From the NCBI RefSeq assembly GCF_003725535.1, contig NZ_RJSF01000019.1, positions 1-32,135 on the forward strand: a DNA stretch of 32,135 nt, read 5' to 3'. This stretch comes from Nocardioides pocheonensis. Lineage in GTDB: Bacteria > Actinomycetota > Actinomycetes > Propionibacteriales > Nocardioidaceae. A model generated the notes under the pieces. The model was not told where the DNA came from and made no database searches. It saw nothing but the letters and a program-made list of their open reading frames with translations. Below, one piece after another: positions 698-17,273 of the stretch. How positions within the stretch are numbered: position 1 is the first letter of the stretch; every line of letters starts with the position of its first letter. The translations under genes were made by a program, and so were the position numbers.

Positions 698-709
698 GCG
701 GCCGCTCAG
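694..709. terminator. 16-bp palindrome shared by two convergent stop codons
   Basis: CTGAGCGGCCGCTCAG is a perfect palindrome. It contains the TGA stop of the VOC gene (695-697) and, on the other strand, the TGA stop of the small lipoprotein gene (708-706). It could be a compact bidirectional terminator, but the arms are short and no T tract follows. Confidence 0.4.
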
Positions 710-936
710 CGGTTGTCGACGCACATGCCGATCGCGTAGTCGCGGTCGGACCGCGGGATGGTCCGGGAGTCGATCAAGGCGTCGACACGGGCGGCGCAGT
801 CGCCGATGCCCGGGCCGCTGGTCGCCGCGCTCGGCGACACCCGCGGCTCGGAGCGTCCCGTCGCGGGGTCGGTCCCGCAGCCGGCGGCGAGCGCCAGGAA
901 CGCGCAGACGGCGACCGACCAGCGGACAGTCGTCAT
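706..936 (-). CDS. Small putative lipoprotein
   Basis: A 76-residue protein with a short charged N-terminus, a hydrophobic stretch and a lipobox ending LAAGC (Cys20), so it is predicted to be exported and lipid-anchored. The mature part has a Thr/Ser/Pro linker and then two cysteines about 25 residues apart (GDCAAR ... GMCVDNR), which could form a disulfide. The ATG overlaps the TGA of the upstream DUF1295 gene by 4 nt (ATGA at 936-933), so translation is probably coupled. It is the last gene of the apparent SigK operon. I recognise no family, and whether it functions in lipid modification is unknown. Confidence 0.7.
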   Translation of the reverse strand: MTTVRWSVAVCAFLALAAGCGTDPATGRSEPRVSPSAATSGPGIGDCAARVDALIDSRTIPRSDRDYAIGMCVDNR

Positions 937-1715
937 GGTCGTCGCTTCGGAGGCAGCGGCACGAACATCGAGGTGCGGGCGGCGTACTCGGGGTAGCCCG
1001 GACGCTTCATCATGGTCTCCTCGAGGAGCCTCGCGCCGGTGGCGAAGACCAGGAAGTAGGTCATCACCACGGGGGACGGCACGGTGAGCACTCCGGGCCA
1101 CGCGGACGCGGCGACCAGCCAGATGCCCCACCAGACGCAGGCGTCGCCGAAGTAGTTGGGGTGGCGCGTGAAGCGCCACAGTCCGCGGTCCATCACCGGC
1201 CCGCGGTTCGGGTCGCGCTTGTACGCCGCCAGCTGCGCGTCGCCGACCGACTCGAAGAGCACGCCGACCAGCCAGACGAGCGCCCCGAGCGCCACCACGA
1301 GACCGACGCCGCCACCGGTGACCGCGGACACCTGCACCGGCAGCGAGACGAACCAGATCGCCGCTCCTTGCGGGATCCACACGCGCACGAGAGGCCCTCC
1401 CCGCCCTGAGCCGAGCAGCTCGGTGTAGCGCGGGTCCTCGCCGTGACCCTGCCCATGAGAAGGCACGGTGCGGCGCCAGATGTGCCAGGACAGGCGCAGC
1501 CCCCACAGGCCGACGAGCGCCAGCAGCAGCCAGCGCCGGAGCGCGTCGCCGTCGCCGAGGAGTGCGCAGACCAGCGCCACGGCAGCGAGGGCGAGGCCCC
1601 AGGTCACGTCGACGACCGAGACCCTCCCGGCGCGCCGGGCGGCGTACGCCGTGACCAGCATCGCCACGACGCAGACCGCGACCGAGGCACCGCTGACGAG
1701 GAGGAAGTCGGTCAC
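933..1715 (-). CDS. DUF1295 membrane protein (steroid 5-alpha-reductase-like fold)
   Basis: A 260-residue polytopic protein with about six or seven hydrophobic segments. It carries the family hallmarks: SWHIWRR early, DPRY after the first helices, then RHPNYFGD followed by WWGIW, and near the end GARLLEETMMKRPGYPEY. DUF1295 proteins belong to the steroid-5-alpha-reductase/ICMT-like superfamily; their chemistry is not settled. In Mycobacterium tuberculosis (from memory) a DUF1295 gene, Rv0446c, sits beside sigK and the fatty-acid methyltransferase ufaA1, and the same neighbours are present here. The GTG start overlaps the upstream CFA-synthase stop by 4 nt (GTGA at 1715-1712). A role in processing the lipid products of the neighbouring enzymes is inference. 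Confidence 0.85.
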   Translation of the reverse strand: MTDFLLVSGASVAVCVVAMLVTAYAARRAGRVSVVDVTWGLALAAVALVCALLGDGDALRRWLLLALVGLWGLRLSWHIWRRTVPSHGQGHGEDPRYTELLGSGRGGPLVRVWIPQGAAIWFVSLPVQVSAVTGGGVGLVVALGALVWLVGVLFESVGDAQLAAYKRDPNRGPVMDRGLWRFTRHPNYFGDACVWWGIWLVAASAWPGVLTVPSPVVMTYFLVFATGARLLEETMMKRPGYPEYAARTSMFVPLPPKRRP

Positions 1716-3007
1716 CAGGAACGCACCGCCGGCAGGTCGTGCGGTCCGGGACGGACCGCGAGGATCTGGTCGACACCCATCCTGCCGTCCCGGAAGGCCA
1801 TCGCGCCGCCGACGAGGTACAGCCGCCACACGCGCAGCACCTCGTCGGGGACCAGGGTGCGCAGGTAGGCCTGGTGCCGCTCGAACCGGGCGATCCAGCT
1901 CTCGACCGTGCGCACGTAGTGCTCGCGCATCGCGTGCACGTCGCGCACCTCCAGCCCGCCGGCCTCGACGAGCGCCACGGTCTCGCCGACCGGCCGCATG
2001 TGCATGTCGGGCGCGATGAACGCCTCGATGAACGGACCGCCGCCCGGGTGCTTGCCCTGCCTCGACATCTGCTGGACCAGCACGCGGCCGCCCGGCCTGA
2101 CCGCGCGGCGCAGCACCTCGACGTACGTCGGGTAGTTCTCCTGGCCGACGTGCTCGCCCATCTCGATCGACGCCACGGCGTCGAAGGAGGTGTCGGGGAT
2201 CTCGCGGTAGTCCTGCAGCCGGATCTCGACCCGGTCCGCCAACCCCCGTGCGGCGATCCGGTCGTCGATGAACGCCTTCTGCTCGCGCGAGATGGTCACG
2301 CCGACGACGCGAGCACCGAAGTCCTCGGCCGCGTGCAGCGAGAGCGACCCCCACCCGCACCCGACGTCGAGCAGGCGCATCCCGGGCGCCAGCCCGAGCT
2401 TGCGGCAGACCAGCGAGAGCTTGTCGCGCTGCGCGTCGGCCAGCCCGTACGCCGGGTCGCTGCTCGTCCAGTACGCCGAGGAGTACGCCATGGTCTCGTC
2501 GAGGATCGCGGCGTAGAAGTCGTTCGACAGGTCGTAGTGGTGGCTGATCACGGACCGGTCGCGCGCCGGGCTGTGCAGCCGACCCCGGACCCGCGCCTGC
2601 GAGGCCGGGGGAGCGGGTCGCCGGCCGAGCGCTCCGAGCCGGGAGGCCGTGCCGGCCGCGCGCGCGACCGACGCCGGTGTCGGCCGGACGCCGCCGAGCC
2701 CGCGCGCCGCGACCTCGGACCAGACGTGCGTGAGCGCCGCGTCGAGGTCGCCGGGCACGTCGATCTCGCCGAGCACGTAGGCCTGGGCGGCGCCGAGCTC
2801 CCCGGGGCTCCACAGCAGTCGGGTCAGCGCCCTCGGAGTGTTGAGCACCACGAGCGGAGCGTCCGCCGGCCCGGCCTCGGACCCGTCCCACGCCCGCAGC
2901 CGCACCGGCAGCTCGCCTGCCACCCACGGCCGGAGGGCCTGCTCCAGCGCCTGGGCGGCACCGGTCGACCGTCGTGCCCCGACCGGGCGGCTCTCGAGCG
3001 CGGTCAC
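1712..3007 (-). CDS. CFA-synthase-type SAM-dependent fatty-acyl methyltransferase (copy 1)
   Basis: A 431-residue member of the cyclopropane-fatty-acyl-phospholipid synthase family. An N-terminal domain of about 150 residues precedes the catalytic part: HHYDLSNDFY (156-165), the SAM-binding motif LLDVGCGWG (212-220), EMGEHVG (282-288), and a C-terminal VWRLYLVGGAMAF. The family transfers a methyl group from SAM onto unsaturated acyl chains, giving cyclopropane or methyl-branched chains. Where E. coli CFA synthase has YSCAYW this protein has YSSAYW, so the bicarbonate-site Cys is Ser177, and the later Cys region reads VGGAMAF with no Cys. The product may therefore not be a classical cyclopropane. 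The GTG start overlaps the upstream paralogue by 4 nt (3007-3004). Confidence 0.85.
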   Translation of the reverse strand: MTALESRPVGARRSTGAAQALEQALRPWVAGELPVRLRAWDGSEAGPADAPLVVLNTPRALTRLLWSPGELGAAQAYVLGEIDVPGDLDAALTHVWSEVAARGLGGVRPTPASVARAAGTASRLGALGRRPAPPASQARVRGRLHSPARDRSVISHHYDLSNDFYAAILDETMAYSSAYWTSSDPAYGLADAQRDKLSLVCRKLGLAPGMRLLDVGCGWGSLSLHAAEDFGARVVGVTISREQKAFIDDRIAARGLADRVEIRLQDYREIPDTSFDAVASIEMGEHVGQENYPTYVEVLRRAVRPGGRVLVQQMSRQGKHPGGGPFIEAFIAPDMHMRPVGETVALVEAGGLEVRDVHAMREHYVRTVESWIARFERHQAYLRTLVPDEVLRVWRLYLVGGAMAFRDGRMGVDQILAVRPGPHDLPAVRSW

Positions 3008-4326
3008 CGGATGCCTCGCGTGAAGGTCAGCTGCTGGACGTCGAGGTAGTGCGACGCGAACCCCGCGCGGGAGTACTCCAGGTAGAAGTGCCACATCCGC
3101 AGGAAGGTCTCGTCGAAGCCGAGTGCCAGCACCCGCTCCCGTGCCGCGACGAAGGTCTCGTCCCACTGGCGCAGGGTCTCGGCGTAGTGGCTGCCGAACG
3201 CGGTGCGACCGACCAGCCGCAGCCGGGTGTGCGAGCGCGTGACGTCCTCGATCGCCTCGACCGAGGGCAGGAAGCCGCCGGGGAAGATGTACTTGTGGAT
3301 CCACGTCCACGTGCGGCGCGTGGCGAGCATCCGCTCGTGGCTCATCGTGATCGCCTGGATCGCGACGCGGCCGCCCGGCGCGAGCACCCGGTCGATGGTC
3401 TCGAAGTAGCTGGGCAGGTACTCGTAGCCCACCGCCTCGATCATCTCCACCGAGACCACCGCGTCGTAGCTGCCCTCGACCGCGCGGTAGTCGAGCAGGT
3501 CGATCCGCACCCGGTCCTCACTCCACCCCTCGAACCGGGCGGCCTCCGCCACCCGCTGACGGGCCAGCGCCTGCTGCTCGCTCGAGAGCGTGACCGAGCG
3601 GATGGTCGCTCCCCGGCGCGCGGCGCGCACGGCGAGCTCTCCCCAGCCGGTGCCGATCTCCAGCACCCGCGACCCGGCCTTGACCCCCGCGGCGTCGAGG
3701 ATCGCGTCGATCTTGCGGGCCTGCGCCTCGGCGAGGTCGCCGCCGAACACGGGCCGGTCGAGCCGGGTGACCGGCACGCCACCCTCCTGCGCCGTGATCG
3801 AGTCGGTCCGGAACATCGCTGACGAGTAGCTCAATGTCGGGTCCAGGAAGGCCGCGAACAGGTCGTTGGACAGGTCGTAGTGACGCGCGATGTTGCGCCG
3901 GGTGTTGTGCTCGGTGTTGCGCTCGTCGCGCGGCGGCCGGGCGACGTACGCCGCCCGCAACCGCTGCATCCACGGCGGCACCAGGTCGGTGATCTGCTCG
4001 CAGAGGACGGTCAGGGTCGCCCCGAGGTCGTCGGCGTCCCAGGCGCCGGTGAGGTAGGACTCGCCGAACCCGATCAGCCCGTCGCTGCCGAGCCGGGCGA
4101 AGAACTCCTCGGGTCGGTGGAGGACCAGGTCGGCCCCCGACCCGGGGTCCGTCGAGACCACGAGCCCGAGCCGGTCGGTGACCCGCCGGAAGATCCGCTC
4201 CGCGATCGCGGCGGACAGACGGGCGCGGGGACCGCGACGGACCGGGGTGATGTCGGCCCAGCGGTCGAGGTCGTCCAGGGGGCGGTCGAGGGGGCGGTCG
4301 ACGGTGCGGTCGGCAGTGGAGGTCAT
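3004..4326 (-). CDS. CFA-synthase-type SAM-dependent methyltransferase (copy 2, UfaA1-like position)
   Basis: A 440-residue CFA-synthase-family protein. Visible motifs are RHYDLSNDLF (148-157), VLEIGTGWGE for SAM (221-230), VEMIEAVG (293-300) and KYIFPGGFLPS (345-355). The C-terminus reads YLEYSRAGFASHYLDVQQ, with Ser where many family members have Cys; the YSCA motif is likewise YSSA (Ser169). Its place directly after the FAD/DUF1365 gene matches M. tuberculosis ufaA1, which is reported to make 10-methylstearic acid from oleate. That makes a methyl-branched rather than cyclopropane product a reasonable guess. The ATG overlaps the upstream stop (ATGA, 4326-4323). The two copies are only moderately alike, so this is either an old duplication or independent recruitment. 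Confidence 0.87.
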   Translation of the reverse strand: MTSTADRTVDRPLDRPLDDLDRWADITPVRRGPRARLSAAIAERIFRRVTDRLGLVVSTDPGSGADLVLHRPEEFFARLGSDGLIGFGESYLTGAWDADDLGATLTVLCEQITDLVPPWMQRLRAAYVARPPRDERNTEHNTRRNIARHYDLSNDLFAAFLDPTLSYSSAMFRTDSITAQEGGVPVTRLDRPVFGGDLAEAQARKIDAILDAAGVKAGSRVLEIGTGWGELAVRAARRGATIRSVTLSSEQQALARQRVAEAARFEGWSEDRVRIDLLDYRAVEGSYDAVVSVEMIEAVGYEYLPSYFETIDRVLAPGGRVAIQAITMSHERMLATRRTWTWIHKYIFPGGFLPSVEAIEDVTRSHTRLRLVGRTAFGSHYAETLRQWDETFVAARERVLALGFDETFLRMWHFYLEYSRAGFASHYLDVQQLTFTRGIR

Positions 4327-6353
4327 CGGACACCTTCCTGGTGGTGGGTGGGTCGGGGCTGGATCGGCAGCCGCCGCGCCCAGAGCCAGACACCCTGCAT
4401 TCGGATCAGGAGGGCCCCCCGGATTGCCGCCGGGGCCGTCCGGATCGGCCGGGCCGCGGACCGGGTGCCACGCAGCGAGGCGTCGAAGACGGCACCGGCC
4501 GCGGTGACGAGCCGGACCGTGACGACCAGCCGGTCGGTCGGCGCCGGCGCGGTCACCTCGTAGTGGCCGTCGACTCCGTGGAACGGCGAGACGTACATCG
4601 CCTTGTCGACGCGCCCCCGGCCCTCGGGGTCGGCACGGAGCAGGTAGGCGTGCCGGTCGCCGTAGGTGTTGTGCACCTCCACGACCGTGGCTGCCGGGCC
4701 GCCGGACGCGTCGTAGCACCAGAACAAGCTGATCGGGTTGAAGCAGTAGCCGAGGGCGCGTGCGTTGGCGGCCATGAGGATCCGGCCGACCGGGACGTCG
4801 ACCCCCTCGCGCGCCAGGAACGCCTCGACGTTCTCCCGGATGCTGCGCGACGGGTCGCCGAGGTGGTCGTGCGCCTCGAACCGTCCCCACAGGCCGTGGT
4901 CGGGCAGGTCGTCGAGGTCGACCAGCCAGAAGGACGAGCGGTTCGAGAACCGGTGCTCCAGCGGCTCGCGGCGGGTGTGCCGGATCGTCGTCGCGTAGAC
5001 CGCGGGAGCTTCGACGGCAGCGGGCGGCGCGACCCACGTGAAGCCGAGCCGCTCGGCGGCGGCCAGGCCGGAGCGCGCGCCGTCCTCGTGGAAGCCCCAG
5101 CCCTTCCAGGCCCCGGCGAAGGCCAGCCGGTCGCTGTCGAGCTCGGCGGCCCGTCGCTGCGCGGCGACCGACTCCGGTGTGTAGAGCGGGTGCTCGTAGT
5201 GCCGCGTGGCGATCACCGTCGCCGGGTCGACGAGGTCGGGGGCGCCGAGCGTGACCAGGTAGCGGGTGCCGTCCTCCCCGTCGGTGCGATCCTGCGGCAG
5301 CCGCATCAGGCGGGTCAGGTCGTAGGTGACCGTCACCCGGTCGCTGCCGGGGCGGGTCCACTGGTTCCACGACGCCCAGGCACCCCGATGGCGGGGGAGG
5401 AGCGAGGTGTCGGTGTGCAGCTGCGCGACGTTCTGCGAGTACGGCATCGCGCCGAGCACCTCACGCTGGGCACCACTCGGGTCCGCCAGCATCGCCAGCG
5501 CCTGCCCCGGGTGGGCGGCGAGCACGACCGCGTCGAAGCGGTGCACCGTGCCGTTGCCGTCGGTGACCTCGACCCCGTCCGCGGTCTCGAGCACCGAGGT
5601 CACCTTGGTCTCGAGCAGCACCCGGCTGCCGCGGGCAGCGAGCGCGGCGGCGACGCGGTCGACGTACTGGCGCGAGCCACCGGTCACGGTGCGCCACTGG
5701 GGCGACCCGAAGACGCTGAGCATGCCGTGGTGGCGCAGGAACGCGAACAGGTAGCGGGCCGGGTACTCCAGCGACACCGCCGGGTCGCAGGACCAGACGG
5801 CGGCCACGAGCGGCGCCATGAAGTGCCGGCGGAAGTACGCCGAGAAGCGGCCCTCCTCGAGGAACGCGCCGAGCGTCTGGCCGTCCGCCCCGGCCTCGGC
5901 CGAGCCGTCGGTCTGCTCGAGCAGCCGACGGGCGCGCCGGTGGAACCGCGGGATCTCCACGAGCATCCGCAGGTACGCCGGCCGCACGGCGTTGCGCCAG
6001 GTCGGGAACAGGCCACGCCGGCCGAGCGCTCCGGCCCACTCCAGGCCCGCGCCACCGTGGGCCTCGTCGGTGCGCACCGACATCGACATGTCCGACGGCT
6101 GGGTCGGCACGCCGAGCTCCGCGAACAGCCGCATCAGCGTCGGGTAGGTCTTCTCGTTGTGCACGATGAAGCCGGTGTCGATGTGGGTGACGCCGTGTGC
6201 GGTCGGCACCTCGTGGGTGTCGGCGTGGCCGCCCAGGCGGTCGTCGGCCTCGATCAGGGTGACCTCGGCCGAGGCCGAGATCACGTACGCCGAGGTGAGC
6301 CCGGCCACGCCGCTGCCGATGACGCCGACGCGGCGGGTGGTGGGGGTGCCCAT
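4323..6353 (-). CDS. Fused FAD-dependent amine-oxidase-like oxidoreductase and DUF1365 protein
   Basis: A 676-residue protein made of two proteins that are often separate. Residues 1 to about 435 are an FAD/NAD-binding amine-oxidase-type oxidoreductase: the dinucleotide motif VIGSGVAGLTSAY (11-23), Glu35 at the end of the second strand, then GGHADTHE and HIDTGFIVHN. After a short Pro/Ala linker, residues from about 450 to the end are a DUF1365 domain, recognisable from RHTRREPLEHRF, ANARALGYCFNPISLFWCYD, VHNTYGDRHAYL and KAMYVSPFHGVDGHY. In M. tuberculosis the equivalents (Rv0449c and Rv0448c, from memory) are two genes. The fusion suggests the two activities act together on the same acyl substrate. 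The reading frame runs through without a stop and the GC-rich codon use is even, so a sequencing artefact is unlikely. Only 2 nt separate it from rskA. Confidence 0.9.
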   Translation of the reverse strand: MGTPTTRRVGVIGSGVAGLTSAYVISASAEVTLIEADDRLGGHADTHEVPTAHGVTHIDTGFIVHNEKTYPTLMRLFAELGVPTQPSDMSMSVRTDEAHGGAGLEWAGALGRRGLFPTWRNAVRPAYLRMLVEIPRFHRRARRLLEQTDGSAEAGADGQTLGAFLEEGRFSAYFRRHFMAPLVAAVWSCDPAVSLEYPARYLFAFLRHHGMLSVFGSPQWRTVTGGSRQYVDRVAAALAARGSRVLLETKVTSVLETADGVEVTDGNGTVHRFDAVVLAAHPGQALAMLADPSGAQREVLGAMPYSQNVAQLHTDTSLLPRHRGAWASWNQWTRPGSDRVTVTYDLTRLMRLPQDRTDGEDGTRYLVTLGAPDLVDPATVIATRHYEHPLYTPESVAAQRRAAELDSDRLAFAGAWKGWGFHEDGARSGLAAAERLGFTWVAPPAAVEAPAVYATTIRHTRREPLEHRFSNRSSFWLVDLDDLPDHGLWGRFEAHDHLGDPSRSIRENVEAFLAREGVDVPVGRILMAANARALGYCFNPISLFWCYDASGGPAATVVEVHNTYGDRHAYLLRADPEGRGRVDKAMYVSPFHGVDGHYEVTAPAPTDRLVVTVRLVTAAGAVFDASLRGTRSAARPIRTAPAAIRGALLIRMQGVWLWARRLPIQPRPTHHQEGVR

Positions 6354-6355
6354 CT

Positions 6356-7111
6356 CTACGTGGCTCTGGAGAAGTCGAAGAGCGCGATCGGCTCGGTGGT
6401 GGGCGACTCCGAGCCGCCCTTCGGCTCCACCGTGATCCCTGCGCCGGTGGCGCTGGTGGCATCGCCCCGGAGCAGCACGGTGCGGCTGCCGCCGTCGGTC
6501 ATCGTCCCGGCGGGCACCATGGCTCCGCCCGGCGTCTGCAGCCAGAGCTCGTAGATCCGGCCGGAAGGGGCCGGCGGCATGTTGCGGGTGACCAGGACGG
6601 CCTTGCCCTCGGTGAGCGAGCGGACGACGCTGGCCCGCACCCCTCCGGTGAGGGTCACGTTGACCCGCTTGGCGTCGGCCGCCTGAAGCACTCGGTCGAC
6701 CGCGGACAGCTGGGTCTGGTGCTGGCCCGAGTCGGACACCTGCTGCCAGACGACGGCTCCTCCGCCGACCACGGCGACCACCGCTGCGGCGGCGGCGAGC
6801 AGGGTCCGGGGACGGCGGCGCGACCGGAGGGTGACGACCTCGCTCGGGCCCGCTACCGGAGTCTCGGGCGGCAGCGGTCGCACGGTGGCGATCTGGGCGA
6901 GCACCCGGTCGCGGAGGGCCGGGGGCGGCTCGGTCGCCGTGGTCTCGGGGAGCAGGGCGGTGGCCTCACGCAGGCTGGCGACCTCCGCGCGGCAGGTGGC
7001 GCACGCGGCGAGGTGCTCCTCGAACTGTGCCTTCTCCGCCGGGTCCAGCGCGTCGACCGCGTAGGCCCCGGAGAGGGCGTGGATCTCGTGGTCGTTGGCC
7101 GAGGCGTTCAT
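6356..7111 (-). CDS. rskA: Anti-sigma-K factor RskA
   Basis: A 251-residue membrane anti-sigma factor. The N-terminal cytoplasmic anti-sigma domain carries the zinc-finger-type motif HLAACATC (His33, Cys37, Cys40). A linker leads to a single transmembrane segment after RSRRRPRTLL (about 100-125), and an extracytoplasmic RskA domain of about 125 residues follows (ELWLQTPGGAMVPAGTMTD, ending in ALFDFS). RskA holds SigK at the membrane, and in M. tuberculosis it is cut by regulated intramembrane proteolysis to release SigK. The ATG overlaps the sigK stop by 4 nt, the usual arrangement for matched production of a sigma factor and its inhibitor. Assignment is strong because of domain order and pairing. 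Confidence 0.92.
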   Translation of the reverse strand: MNASANDHEIHALSGAYAVDALDPAEKAQFEEHLAACATCRAEVASLREATALLPETTATEPPPALRDRVLAQIATVRPLPPETPVAGPSEVVTLRSRRRPRTLLAAAAAVVAVVGGGAVVWQQVSDSGQHQTQLSAVDRVLQAADAKRVNVTLTGGVRASVVRSLTEGKAVLVTRNMPPAPSGRIYELWLQTPGGAMVPAGTMTDGGSRTVLLRGDATSATGAGITVEPKGGSESPTTEPIALFDFSRAT

Positions 7112-7722
7112 TGCCCCACTCCCATCGCGTCACGCAGCCGGATCAGACCGTCCCGGATGCGGGTCTTGGCGGTGCCGACCGGTAGGTCGAGCATCGTCGC
7201 CACCTCGGTGTGCGTGTAGCCACCGAAGTAGGCCAGCTCCAGCGCCTCGCGCTGGATCGTGGAGAGCTCGGCGAGCGCGGTGCGCACCCGCCGGGCCTCC
7301 ATCGAGGACTCCGCGGCCTCGGCCGTGGCGTCGTGCGGCACCACCTGGGTGCGCTGGTGGTACGTCGTGTCCTGGCGCGACGCCGCCTCGGCGGCGCGGA
7401 CCCGGTCGACCGCGCGGCGGTGGGCCAGGGTCATCAGCCAGGACAGCGCGCTGCCCTTCGCGGCGTCGTACCGGGCACAGGTGCGCCACGCCTGGAGGTA
7501 GACCTCCTGGGTGACCTCCTCGGCCTGCGCCGGGTCGCGCACGACGCGCAGCACGAGGCCGTGGACGCGACGGGCGGTCGCGTCGTACAGCTGCGCGAAC
7601 GCCTGCTCGTCACCGCGCGAGCACCGTGCCAGCAGAGCGGAGAGCTGCTGGCCGGGGTCGAGGGGCGCGCCCGTTCCCTCCGGCGAGGTCTCGCCGGAGG
7701 GAACGGGGTTCAGGTGGGACAC
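7108..7722 (-). CDS. sigK: ECF RNA polymerase sigma factor SigK
   Basis: A 204-residue ECF sigma factor. Region 2 spans about 41-110 (FAQLYDATARRVHGLVLRVV, then EEVTQEVYLQAW and AHRRAVDRVR). Region 4 spans about 145-200 (LSTIQREALELAYFGGYTHTEVA and VGTAKTRIRDGLIRLR). Pairing with an RskA-type anti-sigma, a fasciclin neighbour and lipid genes identifies it as SigK. The GTG at 7722 is preceded by GAAGG with a 9-nt gap, and no closer in-frame ATG, GTG or TTG lies between it and region 2. The N-terminal extension is encoded by a perfect hairpin (7671-7706). The only cysteines are Cys34 and Cys82; region 4 has none. It probably transcribes its own operon from the elements at 8432-8459 and 10014-10040. 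Confidence 0.92.
   Translation of the reverse strand: MSHLNPVPSGETSPEGTGAPLDPGQQLSALLARCSRGDEQAFAQLYDATARRVHGLVLRVVRDPAQAEEVTQEVYLQAWRTCARYDAAKGSALSWLMTLAHRRAVDRVRAAEAASRQDTTYHQRTQVVPHDATAEAAESSMEARRVRTALAELSTIQREALELAYFGGYTHTEVATMLDLPVGTAKTRIRDGLIRLRDAMGVGQ
7671..7706 (-). promoter_or_regulatory. Perfect 17-bp hairpin at the 5' end of sigK
   Basis: CCGTTCCCTCCGGCGAG (7671-7687) is the exact reverse complement of 7690-7706, separated by only 2 nt. In the mRNA it lies about 14 nt after the sigK GTG and 54-89 nt after the fasciclin stop. It could limit sigK translation or act as an intra-operon attenuator/terminator. No T run follows. Its existence is certain; its function is inferred. Confidence 0.6.
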
Positions 7723-7759
7723 GTGTCTCAGCCTTCGCTGTCGGTCGGTGTCAGTCTGG

Positions 7760-8386
7760 TCAGGGGACCAGGACGGTGTCGATGACGTACACGGTCGCGT
7801 TCGCAGTCGGGACGTTGCCGCAGAGGACCTGGGCGTCGCCGACCTTGAAGCTGTCGCCCGAGCCGGTGACCGTGATCGTGTCGCCGGCGAGCGTCTTGTG
7901 GGTGCCGGCGAGCTGGTCCGGAGAGAGCTTCCCGGCCACCACGTGGTGGGTCAGGATCGTGGTCAGCTGCTTCTTGTTCGCCAGGATGCCGTTCAGCGTG
8001 TCCGAGGGGATCTTGGCGAACGCGTCGTCGGTCGGGGCGAACACCGTGAGCGCGTCGGCGGAGTTCAGCGTGTCGCCGAGGCCGGCCTGGCCGACGGCCG
8101 AGACCAGCGTCTTGAGCAGCGGGTTGTTGCTGGCCGCGGTGGCGACCGGGTCGCTCGCCATGCCGTTGAACGAGCCCTTGCCGTCCTTGGGGATGAGCTT
8201 GCAGCCGGGGCCGAAGGTGTCGGAGCCCGCATTCATCGGGGAGTCCACGCTCGCCGACGTGTCTGAGCCGGCCGTGGCGTCGGAGGCCTTCGACGAGGTG
8301 TCGCTGCCGCAGGCGGCGAGGCCCAGGCCGAGGGTGAGCGACAGCGCCGCGAGGGCGCCGGTGCGGCGGAGGAGGGAGGTGGTCAT
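7760..8386 (-). CDS. Fasciclin (FAS1)-domain lipoprotein, MPT70/MPT83-like
   Basis: A 208-residue exported lipoprotein. It has an Arg-containing N-terminus, a hydrophobic stretch and a lipobox ending LAAC (Cys26), then a Ser/Thr/Asp-rich linker to about residue 60. A FAS1 domain fills the rest, with TVFAPTDDAFAKIP, ILTHHVVAGKL and a closing YVIDTVLVP. Two further cysteines (GPGCKLIP and VLCGNVP) could form the disulfide typical of MPT70-type proteins. In mycobacteria the MPT70/MPT83 genes are major SigK targets but lie away from sigK; here the gene sits 37 nt upstream of sigK and has its own SigK-like promoter (8432-8459), giving a leader of about 40 nt. Role: a surface adhesion-type protein of unknown ligand. 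Confidence 0.9.
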   Translation of the reverse strand: MTTSLLRRTGALAALSLTLGLGLAACGSDTSSKASDATAGSDTSASVDSPMNAGSDTFGPGCKLIPKDGKGSFNGMASDPVATAASNNPLLKTLVSAVGQAGLGDTLNSADALTVFAPTDDAFAKIPSDTLNGILANKKQLTTILTHHVVAGKLSPDQLAGTHKTLAGDTITVTGSGDSFKVGDAQVLCGNVPTANATVYVIDTVLVP

Positions 8387-8431
8387 CGGAGGTGCCTTCC
8401 GTCGGGTTCGGTGGGTCGAGCTTCAGGAGTG

Positions 8432-8459
8432 GTTCGGGGCCGGGCGCCGGCCGGATTGG
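8432..8459 (-). promoter_or_regulatory. Candidate SigK promoter of the fasciclin gene
   Basis: On the minus strand CCAATCC (8459-8453) is followed by 15 nt and CCGAAC (8437-8432), then CCAC. It matches 10040-10014 in both boxes, the spacing and much of the spacer. Reported mycobacterial SigK promoters are close to CCATCC-N16-17-CCGAAT (from memory). The start site would fall about 40 nt before the fasciclin ATG. Confidence 0.6.
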
Positions 8460-8473
8460 TCGGGTCGCGTGGT

Positions 8474-10006
8474 TCAGGTCACGTTCACGACGAGCTCCTG
8501 GATGCCGCTGGACCCGGCCGGGAACGACGACGCCCGCACGGCGGTCTGCACGGTGCCGTCGCGGCCGGTCGCCCGCACGGCGAGCTGGTGGCTGCCCGGA
8601 CGGGCGTCCCAGGGCAGGTACCACTGCCGCCAGTAGTCGACGCCGGCGTCGGGGCCGAGCGTCGCCGGCTGCCAGGCGCCGCCGTCGATGCGGACCTCGA
8701 CCTTCGCCACGCCGTTGTGCTGGGCCCAGGCCACGCCGCCGATCGCGTGCGTGCCCGCGCGGATCGTGGACAGCGGCCGGGGCGTGTCGATCCGGCTGGA
8801 GAGCTTGATCGGGGCGTCGGTCGCCCAGTCGCGGCGGGTCCAGTAGGCCCGGTCCTCGGCGTACGTCGTGACGGTGAGCCGGGCCAGCCACTTCGTGGCG
8901 CCGACGAAGCCGTACAGCCCGGGAGTCACCAGCCGGGCGGGGAAGCCGTGAGCCCGCGGCAGCGGCTCGCCGTTCATGCCGATCGCGACGAGCGCCGGCC
9001 GGCCGTCGGTGAGGACCGCGAGCGGGGTGCTGATCGTGAAGTCGTCGACGTCGACGGAGAGCACCTGGTCGGCGCCTGCCTTCGGTCCTGCCATGTCCAG
9101 CAACGTCGCCACCGGTACGCCGAGCCAGCGGGCCGCACCGACCAGCTTCCCGCCGACGGTGTTCGACACGCAGGTCAAGGTGATGTCGTGCTCCTCGACC
9201 GCCAGGTCGCGCAGGTCGTCGTAGCTGAACGACAGCTCGCGGTCGACCATGCCGTCGACGCGGAGCCGCCACGTGCGGTGGTCGACGATCGGCACGGTCA
9301 GCTTGGTGTCGACGCGGTAGAAGCGGCCGTTGGGGGTGCGGAACGGCGAGATGCCGGGGTGGTCCGCCTCGAGCCCGGTCGGGAGCGGGGAGAGCGACGT
9401 GGAGGGACGCGGCAGCACGATGTCCGCGATCCGCGACCGGGCGCGCACGATCAGCTGACCGGCTCCGGCGGCCACCACACCGCCGAGGAGCAGAACGCCG
9501 GAGCCGGCCAGGATCGCCCGGCGGCTGGCGCCGGGCCCTGCGGTGGTGTCCTCGGGCGCACCCGTCCGCGGGCCCCGCGGGCGCGCCAGCCACCACAGCG
9601 CGAGGAGGCCGCCGACGGCGGCGACCAGGGAGGGCACGACGTCGCGCGGCGTCGCGTCCGGACGGTGGAGGGCCGCGGCGCCGGCCAGGGCCACGAGCGC
9701 ACCGAGCAGACCCAGGCCGGCGCCGAGCCGGCGTCGGGCGAGCACGCCGGCCAGGGCCGCCGCGAGGAGCGTGACCAGCAGGACGTTGCCGATCAGGATG
9801 GTCTTGTCCGCGGTGCCGAAGTGCCGCACCGCCCACTCCTTGACCGGGGTGGGGGTCGCGTCGATCACGGTGCTGCCGACGGCGAGCACCGGCGACGCGG
9901 CGGGGTCGGTCAGGGCGGCGACCAGGTGCGCGAGCGCCATGCCGAAGGACGCCGCCAGGACCCCGGCACCCGCGTGGACGAACGTCGGTCCCGCGCGTCG
10001 CCTCAT
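8474..10006 (-). CDS. Membrane molybdopterin-dependent (sulfite-oxidase-like) oxidoreductase
   Basis: A 510-residue protein. The first ~190 residues hold about five hydrophobic segments, the last after SRRAILAGSG; the rest is an extracytoplasmic sulfite-oxidase-type Mo-cofactor domain. The cofactor Cys is in ITLTCVSNTVGG (Cys279), followed by ARWLGVPVATLLD and HGFPARLVTPGLYGFVGAKW-like text (here GATKWL). A C-terminal dimerisation-type Ig-like domain contains GVAWAQHNGVAKVEVRIDGG. These enzymes oxidise or reduce small substrates such as sulfite, sulfoxides or nitrate; the substrate is not evident. It is the first gene of the operon, and its ATG is 7 nt downstream of a SigK-like -10 box, implying a leaderless mRNA. 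Family is strong; substrate unknown. Confidence 0.9.
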   Translation of the reverse strand: MRRRAGPTFVHAGAGVLAASFGMALAHLVAALTDPAASPVLAVGSTVIDATPTPVKEWAVRHFGTADKTILIGNVLLVTLLAAALAGVLARRRLGAGLGLLGALVALAGAAALHRPDATPRDVVPSLVAAVGGLLALWWLARPRGPRTGAPEDTTAGPGASRRAILAGSGVLLLGGVVAAGAGQLIVRARSRIADIVLPRPSTSLSPLPTGLEADHPGISPFRTPNGRFYRVDTKLTVPIVDHRTWRLRVDGMVDRELSFSYDDLRDLAVEEHDITLTCVSNTVGGKLVGAARWLGVPVATLLDMAGPKAGADQVLSVDVDDFTISTPLAVLTDGRPALVAIGMNGEPLPRAHGFPARLVTPGLYGFVGATKWLARLTVTTYAEDRAYWTRRDWATDAPIKLSSRIDTPRPLSTIRAGTHAIGGVAWAQHNGVAKVEVRIDGGAWQPATLGPDAGVDYWRQWYLPWDARPGSHQLAVRATGRDGTVQTAVRASSFPAGSSGIQELVVNVT

Positions 10007-10013
10007 GCAGGTG

Positions 10014-10040
10014 GTTCGGCGCGGCCGCCGGACCGGATGG
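10014..10040 (-). promoter_or_regulatory. Candidate SigK promoter of the nine-gene operon
   Basis: Minus strand: CCATCC (10040-10035), 15 nt, CCGAAC (10019-10014), then 7 nt to the ATG at 10006. It shares boxes, spacing and flanks (GACC before, CAC after) with 8459-8432. It also overlaps the promoter region of the divergent gene at 10062. Confidence 0.65.

Positions 10041-11189: not shown

Positions 11190-17273
<6,084 letters not shown>

Follow-up and report, generated by a model that had tools for sequence, protein, structure and literature searches.

A probable SigK-RskA stress operon in Nocardioides pocheonensis that places envelope genes and a putative furan fatty acid block in one unit

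The first 32,135 nucleotides of contig NZ_RJSF01000019.1 of Nocardioides pocheonensis (hereafter the window, G+C approximately 73%) contain nine co-directional minus-strand genes (706-10006) that encode, in 5' to 3' order, a Mo-oxidoreductase, a fasciclin lipoprotein, SigK, RskA, a FAD-DUF1365 fusion, two CMAS methyltransferases, a DUF1295 protein and a small lipoprotein-like open reading frame (ORF). We read them as an autoregulated SigK-RskA envelope-and-lipid stress operon, probably a photo-oxidative one (rough probability 0.6), with a lipid chemistry and a signal proposed from homology. The fasciclin-sigK-rskA part is the already published 'mpt83-sigK-rskA cassette' (Veyrier 2008, as cited in PMC7509140; citations here and below refer to passages of the papers named). 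New are the recurrent linkage of the lipid block (FAD, DUF1365, CMAS and DUF1295) to sigK, the SigK-type sites that the block carries when it is placed elsewhere, and its match to furan fatty acid genes. The genes are as follows.

8474-10006, minus: Mo-dependent oxidoreductase of the sulfite oxidase family (PF00174), approximately 5 N-terminal transmembrane (TM) segments
7760-8386, minus: fasciclin (MPT70/MPT83-like) lipoprotein (PF02469)
7108-7722, minus: extracytoplasmic function (ECF) sigma factor SigK (NF007228)
6356-7111, minus: anti-sigma factor RskA (PF10099), HxxxCxxC zinc-finger motif, one TM segment
4323-6353, minus: fused FAD amine-oxidase-type (UfaD-like) and DUF1365 (UfaO-like) protein, 676 aa (PF01593 and PF07103)
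3004-4326, minus: CMAS-family methyltransferase A (PF02353), corresponding in position to UfaM by the R. palustris gene numbers
1712-3007, minus: CMAS-family methyltransferase B (PF02353)
933-1715, minus: DUF1295 membrane protein (PF06966), weak PEMT and steroid 5-alpha-reductase matches
706-936, minus: small lipoprotein-like ORF, 76 aa, lipobox only, 4-nt overlap
320-697, plus: convergent VOC/glyoxalase gene, bounding the operon at its 3' end

The layout, the motifs and the coupling of the genes are observed directly. An earlier note on this DNA had named the nine genes, from Mo-oxidoreductase to lipoprotein, and described most of them as joined by 4-nt overlaps; all nine ORFs lie at that place and on that strand, eight carry named domains (Pfam and NCBIfam), and five of the eight junctions are 4-nt overlaps, the remaining three being gaps of 2, 37 and 87 nt. 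The ninth gene stood in part: the ORF has a lipobox, the source of its lipoprotein look, and overlaps its neighbor, but it has no Pfam match and by a simple lipobox test was seen in the window only, among 72 loci, so that it is not a conserved member.

First, the lipid block resembles a known pathway. Furan fatty acid synthesis in the alphaproteobacteria R. sphaeroides and R. palustris employs the methylase UfaM, the FAD desaturase UfaD and the DUF1365 protein UfaO, and the R. palustris genes for UfaD, UfaO and UfaM are RPA2571, 2570 and 2569 (PMC7380195). FAD, DUF1365 and CMAS are encoded together here in the same UfaD-UfaO-UfaM order (as given by the gene numbers), and this agreement in domains and gene order suggests that the block makes furan fatty acids. 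FAD and DUF1365 share one open frame in 33 of the 34 loci with the block after rskA (window counted), and fusion of two consecutive steps is compatible with substrate hand-over; the exceptions are one fused block that is unlinked to sigK (L145) and one block after rskA that is not fused (L014). The DUF1365 domain is predicted to form a β-rich barrel (predicted local distance difference test score, pLDDT, 88.4) and was compared with calycin/lipocalin-type folds; the fold search returned only weak matches, among them barrels that bind lipid or haem. Plasmids searched with DUF1365 gave no match.

Secondly, SigK-type promoter sequences accompany the operon and its relatives. Two of those in the window, P1 and P2, had not been named in the earlier note, and P1 sets the 5' limit of the operon.

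10014-10039, minus: SigK-type promoter P1, motif match CATCC-N16-CGAAC, 7 nt ahead of the first-gene ATG, near-leaderless
8432-8457, minus: SigK-type promoter P2, motif match AATCC-N16-CGAAC, 45 nt ahead of the fasciclin ATG
15098-15123, minus: third SigK-type site, motif match, 57 nt ahead of an alpha/beta hydrolase gene (14378-15040, minus)
4399-4425, minus: SigK-like sequence AATCC-N17-CGAAT within the fusion gene, recurring in some relatives

For the pattern MATCC-N16-CGAAY the window has 3 matches where 0.19 would be expected; the whole 4.92-Mb genome has 13, and none for the reversed control. Two of the 13 genomic sites are those in the operon and, beyond it, only those ahead of the alpha/beta hydrolase and of a secreted protein appear well placed by eye. 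The hydrolase is a possible further member of the SigK regulon. The other site (contig C43 of this genome, G000, 166617-166642, L172) precedes a secreted protein of no known family with homologues in 3 of 24 genus genomes, its own counted. The internal sequence at 4399-4425 possibly reflects coding conservation alone (I-R-M codons).

Over 2.83 Mb of fetched loci, a similar pattern with spacers of 14-18 gives 293 matches against 25 for the reversed control, 188 of the 293 with a spacer of 16. Counting the window as well gives 297 matches, of which 174 lie within 900 nt ahead of operon-family genes (0/26 for the reversed control), and 156 precede oxidoreductase, fasciclin, SigK or FAD genes at that distance. 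A promoter matrix trained on oxidoreductase and fasciclin sites, and compared with null windows from the same loci (some real sites among them), finds a SigK-type site ahead of the oxidoreductase gene in 44/59 loci and ahead of the fasciclin gene in 44/65, training set included; these counts are partly by construction because the matrix was trained on such sites, and those for the FAD gene are not. A SigK-type site of its own (scoring above 99% of the null) precedes the FAD gene in 5/6 blocks lying before sigK, 4/4 divergent, 2/6 convergent and 6/24 unlinked blocks, that is in 17/40 blocks not read from rskA and in 0/34 blocks downstream of rskA. Such sites are nearly absent before the later genes of the block (CmaA 1/72, CmaB 0/52, DUF1295 0/61). 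In five loci of family f7 (L079, L094, L165, L166 and L167) a DUF1365 gene with a SigK-type site lies directly before sigK with no FAD gene adjoining, and in L079 a conserved DUF1365 motif seems on inspection by eye to be degraded, as though the pathway were decaying.

The proposals that this is a self-contained SigK circuit, and that it couples surface and lipid genes under one SigK switch, both hold up: the fasciclin protein is the sole PF02469 match in the genome, SigK-type sites precede the oxidoreductase and fasciclin genes, and the rskA stop lies less than 60 nt from the FAD domain in 76 of 77 loci. The note had also placed the main target gene inside the operon; the fasciclin gene does lie with sigK, but the arrangement is not new, being that of the cassette described in PMC7509140.

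Thirdly, the block recurs beside sigK. Of the 196 class genomes 55 have DUF1365, and 44 of those have SigK as well; the two genes lie within 10 kb of each other in 28 of these 44 genomes (within 20 kb in 30), where random placement in 6-Mb genomes would give approximately 0.23 at the shorter distance. The linked genomes represent four families and four arrangements: after rskA (f1), before sigK (f7 and two f21 loci), divergent (f21) and convergent (f20). Eleven DUF1365 genomes of the class sample (G143, G150, G155, G182, G194, G215, G224, G233, G256, G292 and G304) have no SigK match at E 1e-50, and thus other regulators exist. In one of them (G224, L141) a weaker SigK-like and RskA-like pair is divergent from the block.

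SigK itself scores over cut-off in 22/24 genus genomes, 84/117 of the order sample and 110/196 of the class sample. From these lists 120 SigK loci were picked, close kin first and then mostly one per genus (some genomes contributing two), and because they were hand-chosen the shares among them are not class-wide rates: 43/120 have the oxidoreductase and fasciclin genes upstream and co-directional, and 33/120 have the lipid block downstream. Within the window's genus the block lies downstream in 20/21 loci, the remaining locus being a 4.1-kb contig on which a FAD gene start is found by tblastn, and the oxidoreductase and fasciclin genes are kept in 9/21, so the steadier partner of sigK is the lipid block and not the fasciclin. 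Among 80 loci of named relatives the unit is present in Nocardioides, Marmoricola and Pimelobacter, and over both sets (loci with identical DUF1365 DNA in both collections counted once) the block follows rskA in 82 distinct loci, 53 of them with every conserved domain co-directional. The operon is typical of Nocardioides/Marmoricola. The gene order around sigK, described earlier as permuted, does differ from the mycobacterial type when compared across actinobacteria, but it is common in the window's genus. The group also contains a natural rearrangement, Nocardioides sp. Iso805N (L221), where the block and the oxidoreductase-fasciclin-sigK-rskA run are divergent. In two loci (L038, L042) tblastn detects a second SigK-like ECF sigma match after DUF1295 (26-32% identity).

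The proteins of the switch and of the envelope were compared with known families. SigK exceeds the NF007228 cut-off (260.6 against 226 bits) and, aligned to 4nqw, has Ala at both positions equivalent to M. tuberculosis C133/C183, the pair that gives M. tuberculosis SigK its redox sensitivity (PMC7509140). RskA, encoded downstream of sigK, matches RskA_C (PF10099, 92.9 bits, cut-off 29.4) and has one TM segment at 102-123; it falls below the cut-off of the RskA_N model PF22618 (24 against 27 bits) and exceeds that of zf-HC2 PF13490 (32.7 against 22.2). No ChrR-type anti-sigma factor (TIGR02451) reaches its cut-off in the genome (22 against 124.5 bits). The fasciclin protein has MPT70 (1nyo, E 4.5e-42) as its best PDB match, while the oxidoreductase falls below the cut-offs of the SorA/SoxC models and finds sulfite dehydrogenases and oxidases as its PDB matches, its TM count coming from crude hydropathy.

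Several reports bear indirectly on the signal. In R. sphaeroides the UfaD/UfaO genes lie directly 5' of rpoE-chrR and are required for full RpoE activation, and the RpoE regulon contains the fasciclin RSP_1409 (PMC7074977, Table 1); the core RpoE-ChrR targets include the furan fatty acid genes, and ChrR turnover under singlet oxygen depends on these (PMC6852236). The singlet-oxygen-induced RpoE and ChrR of R. capsulatus are nearer to SigK and RskA than to the R. sphaeroides pair (PMC7074977). The M. kansasii MPT83/70 homologues are induced by light (PMC9861118, in which the SigK signal is called obscure) and UV lowers RskA in another actinobacterium (PMC8965627). Together, and by analogy, this literature favours a photo-oxidative SigK signal. 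A point against it is that neither the furan operon nor the fasciclin has a homologue in R. capsulatus, according to the passages of PMC7074977. No paper joining SigK to furan fatty acids was seen in the literature searched; PMC7074977 contains both terms, unjoined in the passages cited here.

Alternatively, with operon and lipid chemistry unchanged, the signal could be thiol/zinc redox stress sensed by the RskA zinc finger and not singlet oxygen. All 34 Nocardioidaceae loci with the block after rskA (window counted) keep HxxxCxxC in RskA and have SigK without the C133/C183 pair assigned to redox sensing in PMC7509140, which speaks for this reading, but the motif singles out no signal because it is common to most SigK loci (103/121 examined, RskA not being found at 6/121), and the light and UV reports (PMC9861118, PMC8965627) point elsewhere; we consider a thiol/zinc signal possible, though doubtful. 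The reverse combination occurs in family f7, where the Cys pair is present and the motif absent in all 5 examined loci that carry DUF1365 next to sigK. A sensor swap, in which Cys pair and zinc motif would be mutually exclusive, was rejected, as 48 of 56 Cys-pair loci keep the motif; 47 of these 48 have no DUF1365 gene in the locus.

The chemistry of the block could also differ from the furan pathway proposed above. Its enzymes might instead yield 10-methyl (tuberculostearic-type) or cyclopropane chains, in line with the proposal for M. tuberculosis Rv0447c (UfaA1), an explanation favoured by the reported formation of 10-methyl stearate by UfaA1 in crude extract (PMC5660069) and by the membership of cyclopropane synthases in the CMAS family. 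However, bfa is the described 10-methyl operon and is distinct from ufaA1 (PMC7791843), and the N. pocheonensis genome has a bfaAB-like pair in that layout, FAD_binding_4 (PF01565) and CMAS (PF02353), apart from the operon (C40:448645-451253, L255). The operon FAD enzyme belongs to PF01593 and not to PF01565, which is presumably the domain of BfaA, and we know of no role of DUF1365 in the 10-methyl pathway. The methyltransferases differ as well: at the position of E. coli CFA-synthase H266, which we take to be part of the bicarbonate site, both window CMAS proteins have Gln, as do 138/140 A proteins and 99/100 B proteins, whereas E. coli cyclopropane synthase and the CMAS of the C40 pair, the third strong CMAS of the genome, have the cyclopropane-synthase His. 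The C40 locus and the His/Gln contrast make 10-methyl chains less likely, and they seem to us an unlikely product of this operon.

The origin of the layout was addressed with an unrooted tree of the block (FAD and DUF1365, 74 loci, the 6 of 80 DUF1365 loci without FAD being excluded), on which the five arrangement states, unlinked included, require 7 changes against a shuffled mean of 34.2. The block-after-rskA state, which in these samples is restricted to the Nocardioidaceae, arises by one change, which fits one origin, with a branch support of only 63. The earlier note had suggested that the nine-gene unit may be an ancestral form of the SigK circuit, which would imply that it was broken up later in mycobacteria. 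The unrooted tree leaves room for this and the Mo-oxidoreductase-fasciclin-sigK-rskA run is widespread among the chosen SigK loci, but the suggestion fared poorly: the block-after-rskA state is a single change beside unlinked and mycobacteria-type blocks, families f7, f20 and f21 have different arrangements, other families having the block before sigK, in divergent or convergent orientation to it, or at a distance from it, and just 9 of 21 genus loci keep the oxidoreductase and fasciclin, making an ancestral unit very improbable. That the lipid genes stand behind rskA by chance, separately expressed and functionally unrelated, is scarcely credible even for an operon known here from sequence alone, given the short rskA-FAD gaps, the linkage in four families, the SigK-type sites of unlinked copies, and a simple scan, a weak test at this G+C, that found no sigma-70-type promoter. 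A scan for intrinsic terminators was empty.

Compared with known systems, the operon combines features of several. As in the mpt83-sigK-rskA cassette, a fasciclin gene with a SigK site is immediately 5' of sigK-rskA; unlike the cassette, the operon here has the Mo-oxidoreductase with its own SigK-type site ahead and the lipid block after. The R. sphaeroides RpoE-ChrR system also pairs an ECF sigma with an anti-sigma factor, has UfaD/UfaO genes adjoining the switch and counts a fasciclin and a UfaM/CfaS gene among the RpoE targets, but ChrR belongs to another anti-sigma family and the targets are spread over several loci rather than gathered in an operon. The bfaAB (tms) 10-methyl operon likewise couples a FAD enzyme to a CMAS methyltransferase on acyl chains, differing in its FAD family (that of the PF01565 gene in the C40 pair) and in having no DUF1365. 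The M. tuberculosis Rv0449c-Rv0446c genes encode FAD, DUF1365, CMAS and DUF1295, with the fasciclins elsewhere. The mycobacterial operon thus shares these four with sigK-rskA, as well as, in several f7 loci, a first-gene SigK-type site, but its lipid genes lie upstream, FAD and DUF1365 are separate, there is one CMAS, SigK has the Cys pair and RskA lacks HxxxCxxC. The Rv0449c-Rv0446c-sigK-rskA operon is autoregulated from the Rv0449c promoter (PMC7509140).

Regulation of the Nocardioides operon by SigK and RskA is suggested by homology. As a membrane anti-sigma factor whose zinc-finger motif is intact, RskA would hold SigK until a signal inactivates RskA, whereupon SigK would transcribe the whole operon from P1 and P2. 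The outputs would be an exported Mo-oxidoreductase, the fasciclin lipoprotein and a phospholipid acyl-chain pathway, in which methyltransferase A (UfaM-like) may methylate unsaturated chains, the FAD domain (UfaD-like) may desaturate beside the branch, and the DUF1365 domain (UfaO-like) fused to it may insert O2-derived oxygen; this would yield methyl-furan chains, and methyltransferase B and DUF1295 would be putative tailoring steps. The furan lipids would serve as quenchers of singlet oxygen or of other photo-oxidative damage and, in the manner of RpoE-ChrR, might in turn influence the turnover of RskA. More tentatively, SigK-RskA could be the actinobacterial counterpart of RpoE-ChrR, its furan lipids both quenching the oxidant and acting as the sensor that triggers RskA loss, so that a single Nocardioides transcript would carry the sensor, the switch, the envelope proteins and the lipid enzymes, with a fused desaturase-oxygenase.

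The furan reading of the block, tied to SigK in four actinobacterial families, makes the SigK signal and the role of the lipid genes directly testable in a harmless bacterium of soil type. If it is true, two different anti-sigma systems would meet on one set of targets, each having lipid genes next to its switch.

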